From Polyangia bacterium (GTDB lineage Bacteria; Myxococcota_A; Polyangia; Polyangiales; JAUICN01): 64,000 bases of DNA. Shown piece after piece: positions 56,121 to 62,342 of this stretch; position 1 is the first letter of the stretch; each line of letters begins with the position of its first letter. The translations under genes were made by a program, and so were the position numbers. Where the stretch lies: contig JAUICN010000002.1 of NCBI GenBank assembly GCA_030427835.1, forward strand, positions 310,001-374,000, written 5' to 3'. The notes under the pieces were generated by a model, which did not search any database, was not told where the DNA came from, and saw only the letters and a program-made list of their open reading frames with translations.

Positions 56121-56185
56121 CTAGGGGTTTGTTTAGCAGTTGGGCCGGGTTGACGCTTGGGTTAGGGGCGGGAACAGTGGTTTCC

Positions 56186-56488
56186 ATGGGTTCGCAGGTT
56201 TCGGTGGTGGTTGGGGTAGGCACCCGGTTTCAGGGGAATATGCTTTGTGTTGGGGTTTGTCGGATCGATGGTCAGTTTACGGGAACGATCACCGGCGAGG
56301 GAACGTTGGTGATAGGCCCGGCGGCCATGGTCGACGCGAGTGTTCATGTGGACGATGTCCTGGTGTTGGGCGGCACCGTGCAGGGGCAAGTGCGGGCCAA
56401 CAACGGCATTGAGGTGCACCCGGGTGCAAACGTGGTGGCGGAACTCCATGCGCCAGGGATTTGGCAGCTCGATAAGCCTGGGCAGTAG
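56186..56488 (+). CDS. Bactofilin
   Basis: A 100-residue bactofilin (DUF583) protein. The sequence is a run of short beta turns of the right-handed helix type (FQGNMLCVGVCRIDGQFTGTITGEGTLVIGPAAMVDASVHVDDVLVLGGTVQGQVRANNGIEVHPGANV, read as successive hexads). It polymerises without nucleotide and can scaffold envelope or polar complexes. I prefer ATG 56186; the long upstream frame is the mirror of the TraB repeats. It is convergent with the pseudoprotease cluster, 4 bp away. Confidence 0.85.
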   Translation: MGSQVSVVVGVGTRFQGNMLCVGVCRIDGQFTGTITGEGTLVIGPAAMVDASVHVDDVLVLGGTVQGQVRANNGIEVHPGANVVAELHAPGIWQLDKPGQ

Positions 56489-56492
56489 CGGT

Positions 56493-58250
56493 TTAGCGGT
56501 TCACCAGGATGGCGTTTTTCACGTCGTTCCAGGTGTGGTCCGAGGGGCGGGAGGCTTCTCCCAGATCGAACTGAATTTTTTTGATGAGGTGATCCACGGA
56601 CTCGACCTCGTCGTTGTGGTGGCAGTTGCAGTTTAGATACCTGATATCTGAGGTTGCTACGCCGTGTTCCTTGCACGGCGGCATGTAGCTTGGGCACTGT
56701 GGAATTAGGGTTCGGGTTTCCATGGGGCGGCCCGCGAACCAGGAGGATGGATTTTTGGGTTCGTGATTGGGTGGGTAGTTGAGTTGAGGGGAATCAAGAT
56801 GGAACTCCCTGCCTGGGATACCGTTGTCGATGGGGTTTTGGGCGATCCATTCGTATCGGAACGGCAGTGACGTGTCCGAGTCGGTGACGATGATCGTGCG
56901 TTGACCTACGATGCGGGTGCGATTGTTTTCTACCCGACAATGGATGGATTCAACACCGGTTACCAAAACCTGAAGCCCGCCGATTTTGAACTCCTGGTCA
57001 CCCTCCATCCCTTGGGCGGAAGGGCAGGTGACCCGCAGCAAATCGGGGGATGTTCGATATCGTTCCGCTTCCCTGCGTGCGCAAAGAAAAAAATCTTTTG
57101 CATTTTGAATGGGTGCAATGGCGATCTGAAATAGCTCCGCCCAAGCTTTGTTTTTGATAGGTTTTGCGTTGGTGACAACTCCGATGAGCGTTTCTTGGGA
57201 GTCCTTTTCAAGTAGGTATCCACTGCCTATCTGTTCTGGGGTGATTTTTTGACCGCTGGTTAGGATCAGGGCCTCTTCCGTGGTGAAGTCGTAGTTGGGG
57301 AACCACACGACAGGAAAACCTTCGTGATTGTTTCCCATACTCACCATTTGCAAGCGTGTTGTTCCAAGCGTGCTTTCCGGGAGGGAAATTTGGGCAGTCG
57401 GTGCTGCGGATCCACTTTCGTTTTCCGCAAGAACGAGAGCGATATGGGGAGTAGCGTTTGCAGCCTGACGGTGGGTGATCACGAGGTTTGGTTGAATGAG
57501 GCGGCCACTTCCGAACTGTCCTGTTCCTAGCTCGAAATCGATGTCGTCTACGCAGCTTGCAGCGGTGATAATTGCGGTCCCGTAGGGTGGGATGGGATCG
57601 ATTTCTGTCGCGGAACAGGTGAGTTCACCCATGTGGTCTGCTTTGGTGCCCGGGTAGGTTTTCAGAATATAGGCGCTGGGAAACTGCTCCGCCGCTTGCT
57701 TGATGCTTGAGTGGCTCTGGGTTTGCAGCATGCGGAATATGATGCTTGCTCGTTGGACGACTTCCCGGGGCAAGGTTTCAACGGTGACTCCCGATTCCAT
57801 GAATGTATTGAGGGTATCTGCAATGCGTTTTGTGGTGACCCACAGTGCTTCGGGCTCATCCATGTGAATGTCCTCGCAGGCCTCTGGCGGAATCTTTCCG
57901 GCCTTGTCTGTTCCCACAAAGTAGCGGTTCACCCACAAGCTACGGTGTATCGTGATGGGAAAGACGGATTGTACGGGGTAGTCTTTTTTCTGGTACTGAA
58001 GCGTGATCGTAAGCCGCTGAATGATACGATGCTCGTTGTAACAACCCAGGTGCCGAGTGAGCGTGGGCATGGGTGGATTGGAGAGGCTCCACCCGCCACC
58101 CAAGTCAATGGGTGTATGGGGCAATAGGCCCCCTTGAATGCCCTTCTGTTCAGCAGATGTTTTGGATATTCCAGGGGTGCACGCGCCGATCTGCAGTGCC
58201 CAGCATAGGTGCAGCAGTGCGGTAAGGCACCTGATCTTGGGAGTGGTCAT
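56493..58250 (-). CDS. Exported lipoprotein with degenerate trypsin-like domain (paralogue 1)
   Basis: A 585-residue protein with a lipobox-like signal peptide end ALQIGAC (Cys24). The N-terminal region (45-210) shares PIDLGGGWSLSN and IPPEACE with the next gene. Residues 210-385 resemble a trypsin fold: TCSATEI, ITAASCVDD in place of TAAHCV, HRQAANATPHIALVL in place of the HPxY..DIAL strand, and EQIGSGYLL in place of GDSGGPL. The three catalytic positions read Ser232, His269 and Ile341. It ends with an unrecognised Cys-containing tail. Last gene of a minus-strand cluster of three paralogues, 5 bp after the second. Confidence 0.72.
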   Translation of the reverse strand: MTTPKIRCLTALLHLCWALQIGACTPGISKTSAEQKGIQGGLLPHTPIDLGGGWSLSNPPMPTLTRHLGCYNEHRIIQRLTITLQYQKKDYPVQSVFPITIHRSLWVNRYFVGTDKAGKIPPEACEDIHMDEPEALWVTTKRIADTLNTFMESGVTVETLPREVVQRASIIFRMLQTQSHSSIKQAAEQFPSAYILKTYPGTKADHMGELTCSATEIDPIPPYGTAIITAASCVDDIDFELGTGQFGSGRLIQPNLVITHRQAANATPHIALVLAENESGSAAPTAQISLPESTLGTTRLQMVSMGNNHEGFPVVWFPNYDFTTEEALILTSGQKITPEQIGSGYLLEKDSQETLIGVVTNAKPIKNKAWAELFQIAIAPIQNAKDFFLCARREAERYRTSPDLLRVTCPSAQGMEGDQEFKIGGLQVLVTGVESIHCRVENNRTRIVGQRTIIVTDSDTSLPFRYEWIAQNPIDNGIPGREFHLDSPQLNYPPNHEPKNPSSWFAGRPMETRTLIPQCPSYMPPCKEHGVATSDIRYLNCNCHHNDEVESVDHLIKKIQFDLGEASRPSDHTWNDVKNAILVNR

Positions 58251-58255
58251 ATAGG

Positions 58256-59995
58256 CTACTGGCCGATGGGAGCAGCCTGTTGGGTTGTGGTGCGGGGTGC
58301 TGTATTGAGGTGCTTGAGGAGGGTTTGGATCTGCACGTGGTTTTCTGGATAGGTGGCGGGGCTGTTTTCTCCATGGATTTGCATCCAGATGAGCTGTGCA
58401 GCGTCCCTGGCGGCGAGTTCCAGGGTGTCGCGTTTGCAATGGCAGCTTGGGTCCCTGTGGGGGGTATGGGTGCAGGTGCCGAAGGTGCTGGGGCATTGGT
58501 GGGTGTTGCGGTGCGCGCTAGCCAGGTAGGCGGTGGCGAAGGTTGCTTCCGACGGGTCTGGGGAGGGGCCCATCTCTAGGTGGATCCGTAGGGGGGGGCC
58601 GTCGGTGCTCAATTCAATCACCCGTCGCCAGCTGTATTGGACACCGCCTGCTGCCGCCGAGTAGTGCACCTGTTCCCACGCAAAGATGTGTGCGGGCACA
58701 TCCTCGATCTCCAGCTCCACGGGTTCGTCCGGTAGGTCAAAGCGATCTCTGCGATCGTCACCCGGTAAACTTTGTTGTTTTGAGGACCCCTGGGGGCAGG
58801 TGGTTTTGTCCACCACGACGCGCCCTTCCACAGGTTGAAGTTGCTGAGCAAGCGCGTAGGCGCAGTCGATGAAATCTTCGTTTTGCTCAATGGAGACTGC
58901 GGTTGAGTGGCCCGTGCCACTGGGCCTGTCCACTTCCACTCCACTTACAATCCCATGGAGAACATATGCGCTGAGCCCCTCGAGGTCTTTTGCAAGTTTG
59001 CCTGTGGGATGGGTAAAGAGACCGCCCCCCACGTCTTCCTGTAGCAAAGTGGCGGGCCCTGTGGAGCTGTAAAACCAATGGGAGTTGTCCAAGGTGGTTT
59101 CACGTGATTCCCACCTTGCGGGGCGCCCTGTTTGGTTGCCAGACATCCCCATCACGAATGCGTTGTTTGCCGTTCGGTATTCTTCAGCGGGCGTGACATA
59201 CCCTTCGGGATCGATTGAGGTCGGTGCGAAGAAAATAGCCACGTTGTGTTGGGGGTGTGCGTAGTTGCGATGAACAATGGCCATGGTGGGTTGCACGTCG
59301 TGTTTGGTGCTGAAGAGTAGGAACTTGCTAGAGAATTGGACCGTTGGGTTGTCCACAGAAAGCACACATTCCTGGGCCGTTGTCATCAAAGGTTGCATCG
59401 GTCGATCATAGGTGGGTAGGAGTACCGCGGAACAGCGGGTACGGCGCAGGTAGGGGCGCTCCTGATCAAGCACAAAGCCCACGGGGAGTAGGGATTCTGG
59501 GGCTCGGCTTTTTACCGTGTCCCTGAACAACGCGTCCACAATGTCCAGGCTACGGTTGGTGATCTGTTCCTCCATGTTCTCTTCCAAGGAATGGTGAAGG
59601 TGGGTGTTGATTTCCCCATGTATTTTTTCGTGGGTTTCCCTTAATGTTTCTGCGTAGTTGAACGTGAAGGATTCGCATGACTCGGGTGGAAGATTGGCTG
59701 ACTGTGGTCCGTTCAGGTGTGCTCGACGCGTTGTTGAGTCGTAGTGCACTGAAAAAACGCTGACTGCATCGCGCTGTTCTGGCCCGTACAGGTAGAAGCT
59801 GTTGCTGCGAATGCGGCCACATTGGGAATGCAGGAAAAATTTGGGTTGTGAATCGTTTTGTAGTTCCCAGCCGTGGCCGAGATTGATGGGGGCGTAGGGG
59901 ACGATGTGGTGGGCGGATTTTTGCGTGGCCTGGGGTGCGCCAAGGGCGGTGCATGCCGTGCAAAGAAGAGCGAGAAGTGGCGTGACGGATCTCAT
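58256..59995 (-). CDS. Exported protein with degenerate trypsin-like domain (paralogue 2)
   Basis: A 579-residue protein with a signal peptide (MRSVTPLLALLCTACTALG). It shares APINLGHGWELQN and LPPESCE with paralogue 1. Trypsin-like landmarks: CSAVLLP, MTTAQECVLS (His to Glu209), IVHRNYAHPQHNVAIFF (Asp to Asn251), LLQEDVGGGLFTHP (Ser to Val322) and VLHGIVSG. All three triad residues are replaced. The C-terminal third has paired Cys (QCPSTFGTCTHTPHRDPSCHCKRD). ATG 59995 overlaps the stop of the upstream frame (ATGA at 59992-59995), indicating that that frame is or was translated. Confidence 0.72.
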   Translation of the reverse strand: MRSVTPLLALLCTACTALGAPQATQKSAHHIVPYAPINLGHGWELQNDSQPKFFLHSQCGRIRSNSFYLYGPEQRDAVSVFSVHYDSTTRRAHLNGPQSANLPPESCESFTFNYAETLRETHEKIHGEINTHLHHSLEENMEEQITNRSLDIVDALFRDTVKSRAPESLLPVGFVLDQERPYLRRTRCSAVLLPTYDRPMQPLMTTAQECVLSVDNPTVQFSSKFLLFSTKHDVQPTMAIVHRNYAHPQHNVAIFFAPTSIDPEGYVTPAEEYRTANNAFVMGMSGNQTGRPARWESRETTLDNSHWFYSSTGPATLLQEDVGGGLFTHPTGKLAKDLEGLSAYVLHGIVSGVEVDRPSGTGHSTAVSIEQNEDFIDCAYALAQQLQPVEGRVVVDKTTCPQGSSKQQSLPGDDRRDRFDLPDEPVELEIEDVPAHIFAWEQVHYSAAAGGVQYSWRRVIELSTDGPPLRIHLEMGPSPDPSEATFATAYLASAHRNTHQCPSTFGTCTHTPHRDPSCHCKRDTLELAARDAAQLIWMQIHGENSPATYPENHVQIQTLLKHLNTAPRTTTQQAAPIGQ

Positions 59996-60861
59996 CGATT
60001 TTTCCTCACGGGCTTTTCTGCCAGCAATTGTTCTAGGAAGTGTTCGGGCTGGTCGTCGACCGGGTTGCAATCGGTGAGGCGCGCTCTCATGTGCTTTGCA
60101 ATATCGAGTACGGCCGAGGCTACGCTTGGCCTTCGAATACGGCAGGTAAGAATGTTGGCGTTGGAGTTAGGCACAGGCGATGAACTTGAGGTAACGGTGG
60201 ATGGGGTAGACTTCTACCTTGGAGTGCGGCACTCGCGGTTGTTTGGATTGGTACACAGATCGTCCTACGCCATGCAGCGTTTGAAACCTATCGGATCGGG
60301 GTTGTTGGCGAGGATGGCTCCACCACGATCTTCACGGGTTAGGGCTGGGGGAGCCAAGAACTTCCATGGGTTACTGCGCTCTTGGGGTTTTTCTGGGAAC
60401 GGCCTCCAGGTACTCGGTGACAGGATGTTTGTTCTGCCGCTGCCCACGCCGAAGAATCTGTCTTGCACCTGGGGATTCGGAAAACGTTGTGCGAGTAAAA
60501 AGTAATCTTTCTGCTGTGGCCCGTTGGACGGACTGGGTGCAGAAGTATCCTCAGGAGAAAAAATTCCTGCTAGCTGTTCCCGGGTGTGAAAGACCGCGAG
60601 TTTTGGTGCGACAGAGTGGGGCCGTGATCCCCGGTGTTGGAGGGCTATGGATTGGGCATCCGTGCTCAGGCACAGTTTGTTGGTCAGGGCCACTTGGTTG
60701 CGGTGTTCCTCGAACCCCGTGTCTTTGAGGTCCTGAAGAGCCCCAGGAATCGCTGTGCAGGACAGTAGAGCCGTGCACGGAAGCAGGGCCGCCAGGGCTG
60801 CCCAGGGGGTGGGAATGAATTTCTGTGATTCAGGGCGGCGGGGCACAACATGAGGCAGCAC
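59992..60861 (-). pseudogene. Frame-disrupted third paralogue of the trypsin-like cluster
   Basis: The 5' part (60265-60861, 198 codons) is a shortened paralogue: signal peptide with lipobox LLSC, VALTNKLCLSTD (TAAHC equivalent), KLAVFHTREQLAGIFSPED, and LTREDRGGAIL in place of GDSGGPL. It hits TAG at 60265-60267. The similarity to paralogue 2 then continues one frame over (LHGVGRSVYQSKQPRV from 60277), and returns to the first frame, which ends at TGA 59992 and overlaps the next ATG. In-frame stops also occur at 60214-60216. Two compensating indels, or sequencing errors, explain this best. All triad positions are already degenerate. Confidence 0.55.
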
Positions 60862-60882
60862 AGCAATCTTGGTGCCAGGGGA

Positions 60883-62241
60883 CTAATTCCAGTTGAGGCC
60901 CAGGGTGGCCACGAGCTGGGTGCGGCGATCGACCCCATCTAAGCCTGTTTCTTCTAGGATGGCCCCGCTTCCATCCAGTGTTGCGTCGTAGCGGGTGTAG
61001 GTGGCTTCTACGCCGTATCGAACGCTGATGTGCGGGTGGCTGAGTTGCCGGTGGATGGGAGCGGAGCCACCTAGGCTGAAGGTTCCAGAAAAGGCCCATA
61101 TTTTGGAATCCCGGGCGAATCTCGGGGTGAGATCTCCGTCGTGAAAGACGTAGTGGCCCCCTAGGTTGGCCCGGGCCAGGAGGCGTGCGCCAAGCAAGGG
61201 GTAGAACACGTCCACCCGTGGCCCACCGTGGATGTAGGTGGTTGTGGGCATAATGGTGTTGTTCTCAAAGGCGAATCGATCCACGCCGCCCTGGATACCT
61301 GCCATGACCGTGACGTCGTTGGATCGAACCACGTCGTAGAGCACTCGGATTCCTGCAAGTTCGGCGTGGGTTTGGATGTCCTGCCCAAGATCGTCGGTGG
61401 ATTGGATGCGTAGGGCCTTGGCTGCATGGATCCCGAAAGAGAGGGGGGACCGGCGCCAGGGCCGGGCAGACAGGTCCAGTTGAAGCCAGGGTACGTACTC
61501 CGACCGGTAGGTGCGATCGGTGCCGTTCACGAGTCGAAAGGTACTTTCGCGTAGGCCGAACCCCAGGCCCACGTCTAGGGTTAGTGTGGGTGCAGAGGAT
61601 CCGTCTTTTGGTTGCTTGGGCCTTTTTTTGTGGCGTTTTCTCCTGGCGCGGGTTTCCTCCTCGGGTTTTTGGTCTCGCGCTGCTTGTTGTGTGTCCTGGT
61701 CGACGTTGCTGACGTGGTCTTCAACACCAGGAGCCGATGGGCCGATGTGGGGCGTGAGTAAGGTTCGCAGGCCTTCCTGAACTCGGTTTGTTGTACCCTG
61801 ACCTCCCAGGGGGCCCACCAGTTGTTCACCTAGGTTGGTGCCCGTGGGTGAGTGGAGGGTGAGGGTGACTGCGATTTGCGCCCCGGTTCCCATGACTCGA
61901 CCGCTTAGGAACCAGAGTTGAGATCCCGGATGGGCCGAGGCGTAGGATGTGGCGGTTTCGTGGTGTTGGGTATTTGTGTTCGAGGCTGCGCTCTGGTGCG
62001 GTTCCACCTCTGTGCGCGCCACCACCTGAAAGTTCAGCTGTTGGGACAAAGCCTGGCTGTTTCGAACGATCAGATTGCGCACCGCCACCCTGTTGGGGCC
62101 TTCAAAGTTTGGAATAACTAGGTGAGCTTTTGTGGAGTTCTGGGCTTGCGCCACGGTTGGGTAAACCCCGAGGACTGCCGCAAACCCGTTTGAGGTGATC
62201 AGGGCGAGCCCAAGAACGATGCTGTTGTGGGCAGGTGCCAT
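60883..62241 (-). CDS. Exported protein with C-terminal beta-barrel
   Basis: A 452-residue protein with a signal peptide (IVLGLALITSNGFAAVLGVYPTVAQAQ). Residues 35-150 form an alpha/beta domain (HLVIPNFEGPNRVAVRNLIVRNSQALSQQLNFQVVA) like those that bind or assemble at the outer membrane. A strongly basic linker (RARRKRHKKRPKQPKDG) precedes a barrel-like region (TLTLDVGLGFGLRES..., YVPWLQLDLSARPW, ISVRYGVEATYTRY, LVATLGLNWN). ATG 62241 gives a better signal peptide than 62280. 21 bp before the pseudogene, so maybe one operon. Confidence 0.8.
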   Translation of the reverse strand: MAPAHNSIVLGLALITSNGFAAVLGVYPTVAQAQNSTKAHLVIPNFEGPNRVAVRNLIVRNSQALSQQLNFQVVARTEVEPHQSAASNTNTQHHETATSYASAHPGSQLWFLSGRVMGTGAQIAVTLTLHSPTGTNLGEQLVGPLGGQGTTNRVQEGLRTLLTPHIGPSAPGVEDHVSNVDQDTQQAARDQKPEEETRARRKRHKKRPKQPKDGSSAPTLTLDVGLGFGLRESTFRLVNGTDRTYRSEYVPWLQLDLSARPWRRSPLSFGIHAAKALRIQSTDDLGQDIQTHAELAGIRVLYDVVRSNDVTVMAGIQGGVDRFAFENNTIMPTTTYIHGGPRVDVFYPLLGARLLARANLGGHYVFHDGDLTPRFARDSKIWAFSGTFSLGGSAPIHRQLSHPHISVRYGVEATYTRYDATLDGSGAILEETGLDGVDRRTQLVATLGLNWN

Positions 62242-62342
62242 GGGCAAGAACCTAGCAATCTTGAACGTATTTGGGGACATTCATGGAATGGTGAATGGTT
62301 TTGAAATATATGTCGTCCCATGGGCGTAGGTTGGGCACACAC

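Follow-up and report, generated by a model that had tools for sequence, protein, structure and literature searches.

Predicted lipoproteins with a mostly triad-less trypsin-like domain form a divergent paralogous family in a myxobacterial genome

Pseudoproteases are well known in animals, whereas to our knowledge few bacterial cases have been described. In bacteria, MamO and the degenerate copies of MamE are trypsin-like pseudoproteases whose retained role is non-catalytic (PMC4794232). The degenerate MamE copies are duplicates of an active protease, and MamO is a metal-binding protein of the HtrA type, present in few copies and with a nearly complete active site in which Thr stands for Ser (PMC4794232). 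Insect serine protease homologues likewise belong to large S1 expansions in which a single genome encodes both active and inactive paralogues; these proteins are eukaryotic, often carry clip domains and function in cascades such as melanisation. The SitA toxins of Myxococcus are modular, polymorphic lipoproteins with N-terminal escort domains, C-terminal nucleases and immunity genes (PMC5562445, PMC8546572).

The family of the two genes described here, p1 and p2, differs from MamO and MamE in that 15 divergent copies, all lipoproteins, have an eroded site, and from the insect proteins in that its extra domains match nothing known. Like SitA, its members are modular myxobacterial lipoproteins, but the escort, nuclease and immunity arrangement is not seen, and no Pfam nuclease match was found in p1 or p2. 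The nearest relatives are ordinary trypsins (S1, PF00089/PF13365) that other members of the order secrete, to which the middle domain is homologous, with the same motif order and a pair resembling Cys42-Cys58. These trypsins are intact enzymes without the lipoprotein architecture, whereas p1 and p2 lack the triad and any Pfam match. The open-access literature that we searched holds no report of such a bacterial lipoprotein pseudoprotease family. Pseudoproteases as such are already known; a large bacterial radiation of lipoproteins of this kind is, as far as we have searched, new. Since one genome holds the whole series, from three members with an intact triad through partly and fully eroded members to a gene wreck, the loss of catalysis by a protease scaffold and the reason for its retention become testable. 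In addition, p1 and p2 match no family model, which means that such families escape annotation.

The window, i.e. the whole stretch of 64,000 nucleotides that was analysed, contains the features listed in Table 1.

Table 1. Position and description of the features in the window.
Feature	Position	Strand	Description
p1	56493..58250	-	585-aa predicted lipoprotein; lipobox ..QIGA/CTPG; start reassigned to ATG 58250; N-terminal domain, triad-less trypsin-like domain and C-terminal CPS..C..C.C domain, in this order
p1 trypsin-like domain	57048..57707	-	57 = Ser (codon 57557-57555), 102 = His, 195 = Ile
p2	58256..59995	-	579-aa predicted lipoprotein; lipobox ..LCTA/CTAL; three-domain architecture as in p1
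p2 trypsin-like domain	58829..59530	-	57/102/195 = Glu/Asn/Val
p3 piece 1	60265..60861	-	lipobox signal fused directly to degenerate trypsin-like domain (profile 208-347), then stop
p3 piece 2	60170..60292	-	other reading frame; end of trypsin-like domain (LHGVGRS..FIACA, profile from 345)
p3 piece 3	60019..60150	-	first frame again, beyond stops; C-terminal helices (profile 522-565)
barrel gene	60883..62280	-	beta-barrel of the sequence-only reading; single copy in genome; not a family member

The genes p2 and p1 are consecutive on the minus strand, with 5 nt between the stop of p2 and the ATG of p1, which leaves no room between them for an immunity gene. The earlier starts at 58496 (p1) and 60070 (p2) were replaced by 58250 and 59995, which place a lipoprotein signal peptide first. 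From these starts, a signal peptide with a lipobox is found by pattern at both N-termini (IGA/C in p1 and CTA/C in p2), as in the paralogues. The lipobox backs the earlier claim that the products are exported, but they are predicted to be lipid-anchored and not free. In Escherichia coli, the residue after the lipobox Cys bears on sorting to the outer membrane. Asp follows this Cys in none of the aligned members, so that by the E. coli rule an outer-membrane location is suggested for p1, p2 and their paralogues. We regard p1 and p2 as a tandem pair of predicted lipoproteins, probably anchored in the outer membrane. Promoter and terminator scans gave nothing above shuffles, and searches of plasmids and phages and of genome contigs with p2 returned no match and no relative, respectively. 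By eye, a bactofilin-like gene (56150-56488, plus strand) is convergent with p1.

The sequence-only reading counted three consecutive genes here. Two of them are real and full-length, but the third, p3 (60265-60861), is a pseudogene. A profile built from the 18 full-length members, with p3 excluded, was compared with the three translations of 59991-60900, and it matched three collinear pieces: profile positions 208-347 in frame 0, 345-417 in frame 2 and 522-565 in frame 0 again, with E-values of 8.5e-8, 5.6e-4 and 3.7e-3 in this search of three sequences. The N-terminal domain and profile positions 417-522 are missing, and the GC content at third codon positions is lower than that at first positions, opposite to p1 and p2. 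As a wreck, p3 is no evidence for a selected non-catalytic protein. It does show that copies of this family decay, and p1 and p2 could in principle be duplicates heading for the same fate. We consider this very improbable, because both are full-length, their GC content at the third codon position exceeds that at the other two as in neighbouring genes, and more than 2 changes per site have left their lipobox, cysteines and three domains in place.

The motifs quoted earlier are present as stated (TAASC, PHIAL and EQIGSG in p1; TAQEC, HNVAI and EDVGGG in p2; TNKLC, QLAGI and EDRGGA in p3), and the alignment matches them to positions 57, 102 and 195 of trypsin, where the catalytic residues are replaced in all three (Table 1; L/Q/R in p3). 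The trypsin-like core that had been proposed is not recognisable in any window product alone, whereas its homology is beyond chance through family profiles. Pfam and NCBIfam searches, Pfam profiles having been put forward earlier as a check, gave no match to p1, p2, p3 or the barrel gene up to E=10. Against a trypsin HMM from 74 loci (E at Z=1000), the single proteins gave E-values of 0.11 (p1), 46 (p2) and 120 (p3), at or near the level of 1,050 shuffles, the best of which reached 1.5. Several paralogues match the same HMM (C18a, 3e-10; C15a, 7e-9; C1b, 9e-7; the handles give the contig). In HMM-HMM comparison with nine ordinary trypsins of the order, p1 and p2 together gave a probability of 82% (E=1e-5), and a profile of the 15 triad-less paralogues reached 99.1% against ordinary trypsins (E=6.3e-19). 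The family profile also matched solved chains of the chymotrypsin family (S1) in the PDB, with a best E-value of 5.3e-8; MamO appeared only at E=0.047, ranked below the S1A chains. Since p1, p2 and p3 are unmatched singly, their link to trypsin is transitive, through the 18 full-length paralogues. The profiles thus compared argue strongly for such transitive homology of the triad-less members to S1 trypsins.

Structure prediction is compatible with this assignment. The alignments for these jobs contained named ordinary trypsins, taken from a contig search with the trypsin alignment, and left out the family paralogues. The AF2 model of the p1 domain (pLDDT 72.4, pTM 0.75) was built with 50 trypsins in its alignment, and with this input it matches chymotrypsin folds (Foldseek E 1e-7; VIA Z 19.5, rmsd 3.0 over 197 aligned residues). 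Because real trypsins were in the alignment, the model indicates compatibility with the fold and is not an independent fold determination. The model of p2, predicted from its single sequence, was unusable (pLDDT 33.7).

A six-frame search of the host genome (3.32 Mb, 30 contigs) with 13 members revealed at least 18 full-length three-domain members on seven contigs: three on C1, one each on C2, C12 and C25, six on C15, two on C17 and four on C18, p1 and p2 included. Their frames are open over about 580-640 codons at only 18-22% identity to p2, and the median end branch is 1.66 changes per site. A lipobox was found in the members by pattern or by eye, being weak in C17b. The triad is not lost throughout the family: C17a, C17b and C18a, all outside the window, keep His, Asp and Ser at positions 57, 102 and 195. 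The other 15 of the 18 lack Ser195 plus at least one other triad residue, and eight lack all three. Their residues at 57/102/195 are H/N/D (C1a), H/N/E (C1b), S/D/R (C1c), S/D/E (C15a), S/D/C (C15b), S/D/G (C15c), S/N/D (C15d), D/G/T (C15e), D/H/L (C15f), Q/N/R (C18b), R/D/T (C2), G/G/R (C12) and D/N/Q (C25), besides those of p1 and p2. A few members are probably active enzymes, judging from the triad. Gly193 is kept in C17a and C17b, and C18a has Ser at this position. A residue other than Gly at 193 can block the oxyanion hole, as argued in the MamO study (PMC4794232), which makes the activity of C18a less sure.

The presence of paralogues with an intact triad raises the question whether the triad-less members, by analogy with insect clip-domain homologues and with MamO beside MamE, serve as their cofactors or regulators. 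Three members have the full triad, intact C18a directly adjoins dead C18b, and the MamO study reports that active copies are repeatedly paired with inactive ones (PMC4794232). However, an active copy is missing next to most dead ones, among them p1, p2 and the clusters on C15 and C1, and the ratio of dead to intact members, 15:3, is far from pairing. We therefore consider a cofactor role unlikely.

The sequence-only reading took the loss of the triad to be independent in all copies. The maximum-likelihood tree requires two changes at Ser195, four at His57 and five at Asp102, whether the catalytic columns are included or left out; its branches are long, and support is weak at several deep nodes. 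A topology that unites the three intact members in a single clade is not rejected (p-AU 0.076), so that the loss of Ser195 could shrink to one event. As p1 and p2 are sisters on the tree (88/84, not starred), they most likely inherited the loss. The loss of Ser195 was probably confined to one or two events that predate p1 and p2, and changes of His and Asp are, on this tree, repeated in the family. Independent loss in three copies is unsupported, because the loss of Ser is probably older than p1 and p2 and because p3 is a pseudogene.

Position 195 is occupied by ten residue types in the 15 triad-less members, none of them Ser (3.19 bits, the 93rd percentile of 188 columns). Around it, Gly196 is kept in 15/15 and Asp194 in 13/15; elsewhere, Cys58 and Ala104 are each kept in 14/15. 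The earlier claim of selection for a non-catalytic role gains indirect support from the long open frames and from the retention of Cys58, Asp194 and Gly196 at about 20% identity, but it can no longer draw on p3. The preserved cleft loop, together with Cys, Asp or Glu at 195 in some copies, might also be read as a cleft that is still enzymatic through different residues. This seems hardly credible, because residue 195 differs among most copies (Ile in p1, Val in p2), His57 has mostly become Ser or Asp, and no alternative set is shared.

We propose, with a probability of roughly 0.5, that the triad-less members are non-catalytic binding scaffolds at the cell envelope, that is, pseudoproteases on the S1 fold. 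Their ancestor would have been a working protease; three paralogues still carry His-Asp-Ser. The nucleophile Ser195 would have been lost in the line leading to most members and the remaining active-site residues eroded afterwards, the fold, Cys58 and the 194-196 loop being retained throughout. The trypsin domain, held between N- and C-terminal domains specific to the family, may then bind a ligand without cutting it, candidates being a peptide, an inhibitor, a surface molecule or a partner protein, and the old cleft would be free to differ among copies. Copies would be born by duplication and lost by deletion, p3 being an example. The sequences show the homology, the lipobox, the residues at the triad positions, the retained constraint, the narrow distribution and the decay of p3; the outer-membrane location, the binding and the ligand are what we infer from them. 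Going further, the fold might be a variable recognition scaffold, with a hypervariable residue 195 in a conserved loop and gene birth and death, for recognition of kin, prey or host; we entertain this only tentatively, and the variation at 195 could stem from relaxed constraint and not from selection for new specificities.

Five or six additional lipoproteins possess the C-terminal Cys-rich domain but have a different middle region in place of the trypsin domain (one on C7, three on C30, C18:170227, and one on C13, L177 6546-7148, cut by the contig end). A shared N-terminal domain in five of them was unsupported (probability 1.1%). Since at least five lipoproteins carry the C-terminal domain without a trypsin domain, it could be the working part. 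The trypsin domain would then be a passive spacer whose unneeded active site decayed, the C-terminal and perhaps the N-terminal domain doing the work. In line with this, a 201-aa ORF (C25:32867-33469; L176 9868-10470) has no trypsin domain between its signal peptide and the C-terminal motif and is probably a deletion derivative of its neighbour. Nevertheless, Gly196, Asp194, Cys58 and the 102-104 strand are conserved among members whose overall identity is very low, which argues that the structure of the trypsin domain is maintained, and we hold the spacer explanation to be possible but doubtful in comparison with a binding scaffold. A further protein of 507 aa (C15:232060; L038 1507-3027) is trypsin-like, with His and Ser motifs (TAAHV, NDSGA), no clear Asp and no Cys58, and its stop is reached without a C-terminal domain.

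As judged from these searches, the family is lineage-restricted, so far to one myxobacterial genome, which is the sole member of its taxonomic family among the searched genomes of the order. Across 184 genomes of the order, matches beyond the host genome are confined to the trypsin domain (best E=3.3e-12). Those inspected are ordinary trypsins, mostly with the three motifs intact; a simple pattern missed one or two motifs in three of them. The C-terminal domain matches at 25 places in the host genome. A search of 378 other genomes of the phylum added only four matches at about chance level for that number of genomes (E 0.004-0.009), none convincing. The three-domain architecture was not found in any other genome searched. 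The adjacent barrel had been considered a possible conserved partner. It is present once, its relatives occur in 11 other genomes of the order in which the family architecture was not found, and the 16 other full-length members cannot adjoin it, so that a conserved partnership is unsupported. The family clusters sit among unrelated genes, and PADLOC defence models gave no match to 13 members at E<=0.01.

Between the pseudoprotease genes on C1 lie two alternating pairs of large lipoproteins of about 720 and 930 aa (C1:16310-26580; L006 8311-18581). The larger pair is 35% identical, with no further copy in the genome and no Pfam match, and has by eye GEGAG and GTGAG motifs reminiscent of a lipase elbow that lacks the serine. 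An assignment as lipases with a lost serine was dropped, as Pfam and PDB gave no support. Near C18a and C18b, a PEGA-repeat-like protein with a barrel-like C-terminus was noted by eye (L016 3986-6085), and an ordinary trypsin of the host genome ends, also by eye, in a MYXO-CTERM-like tail.
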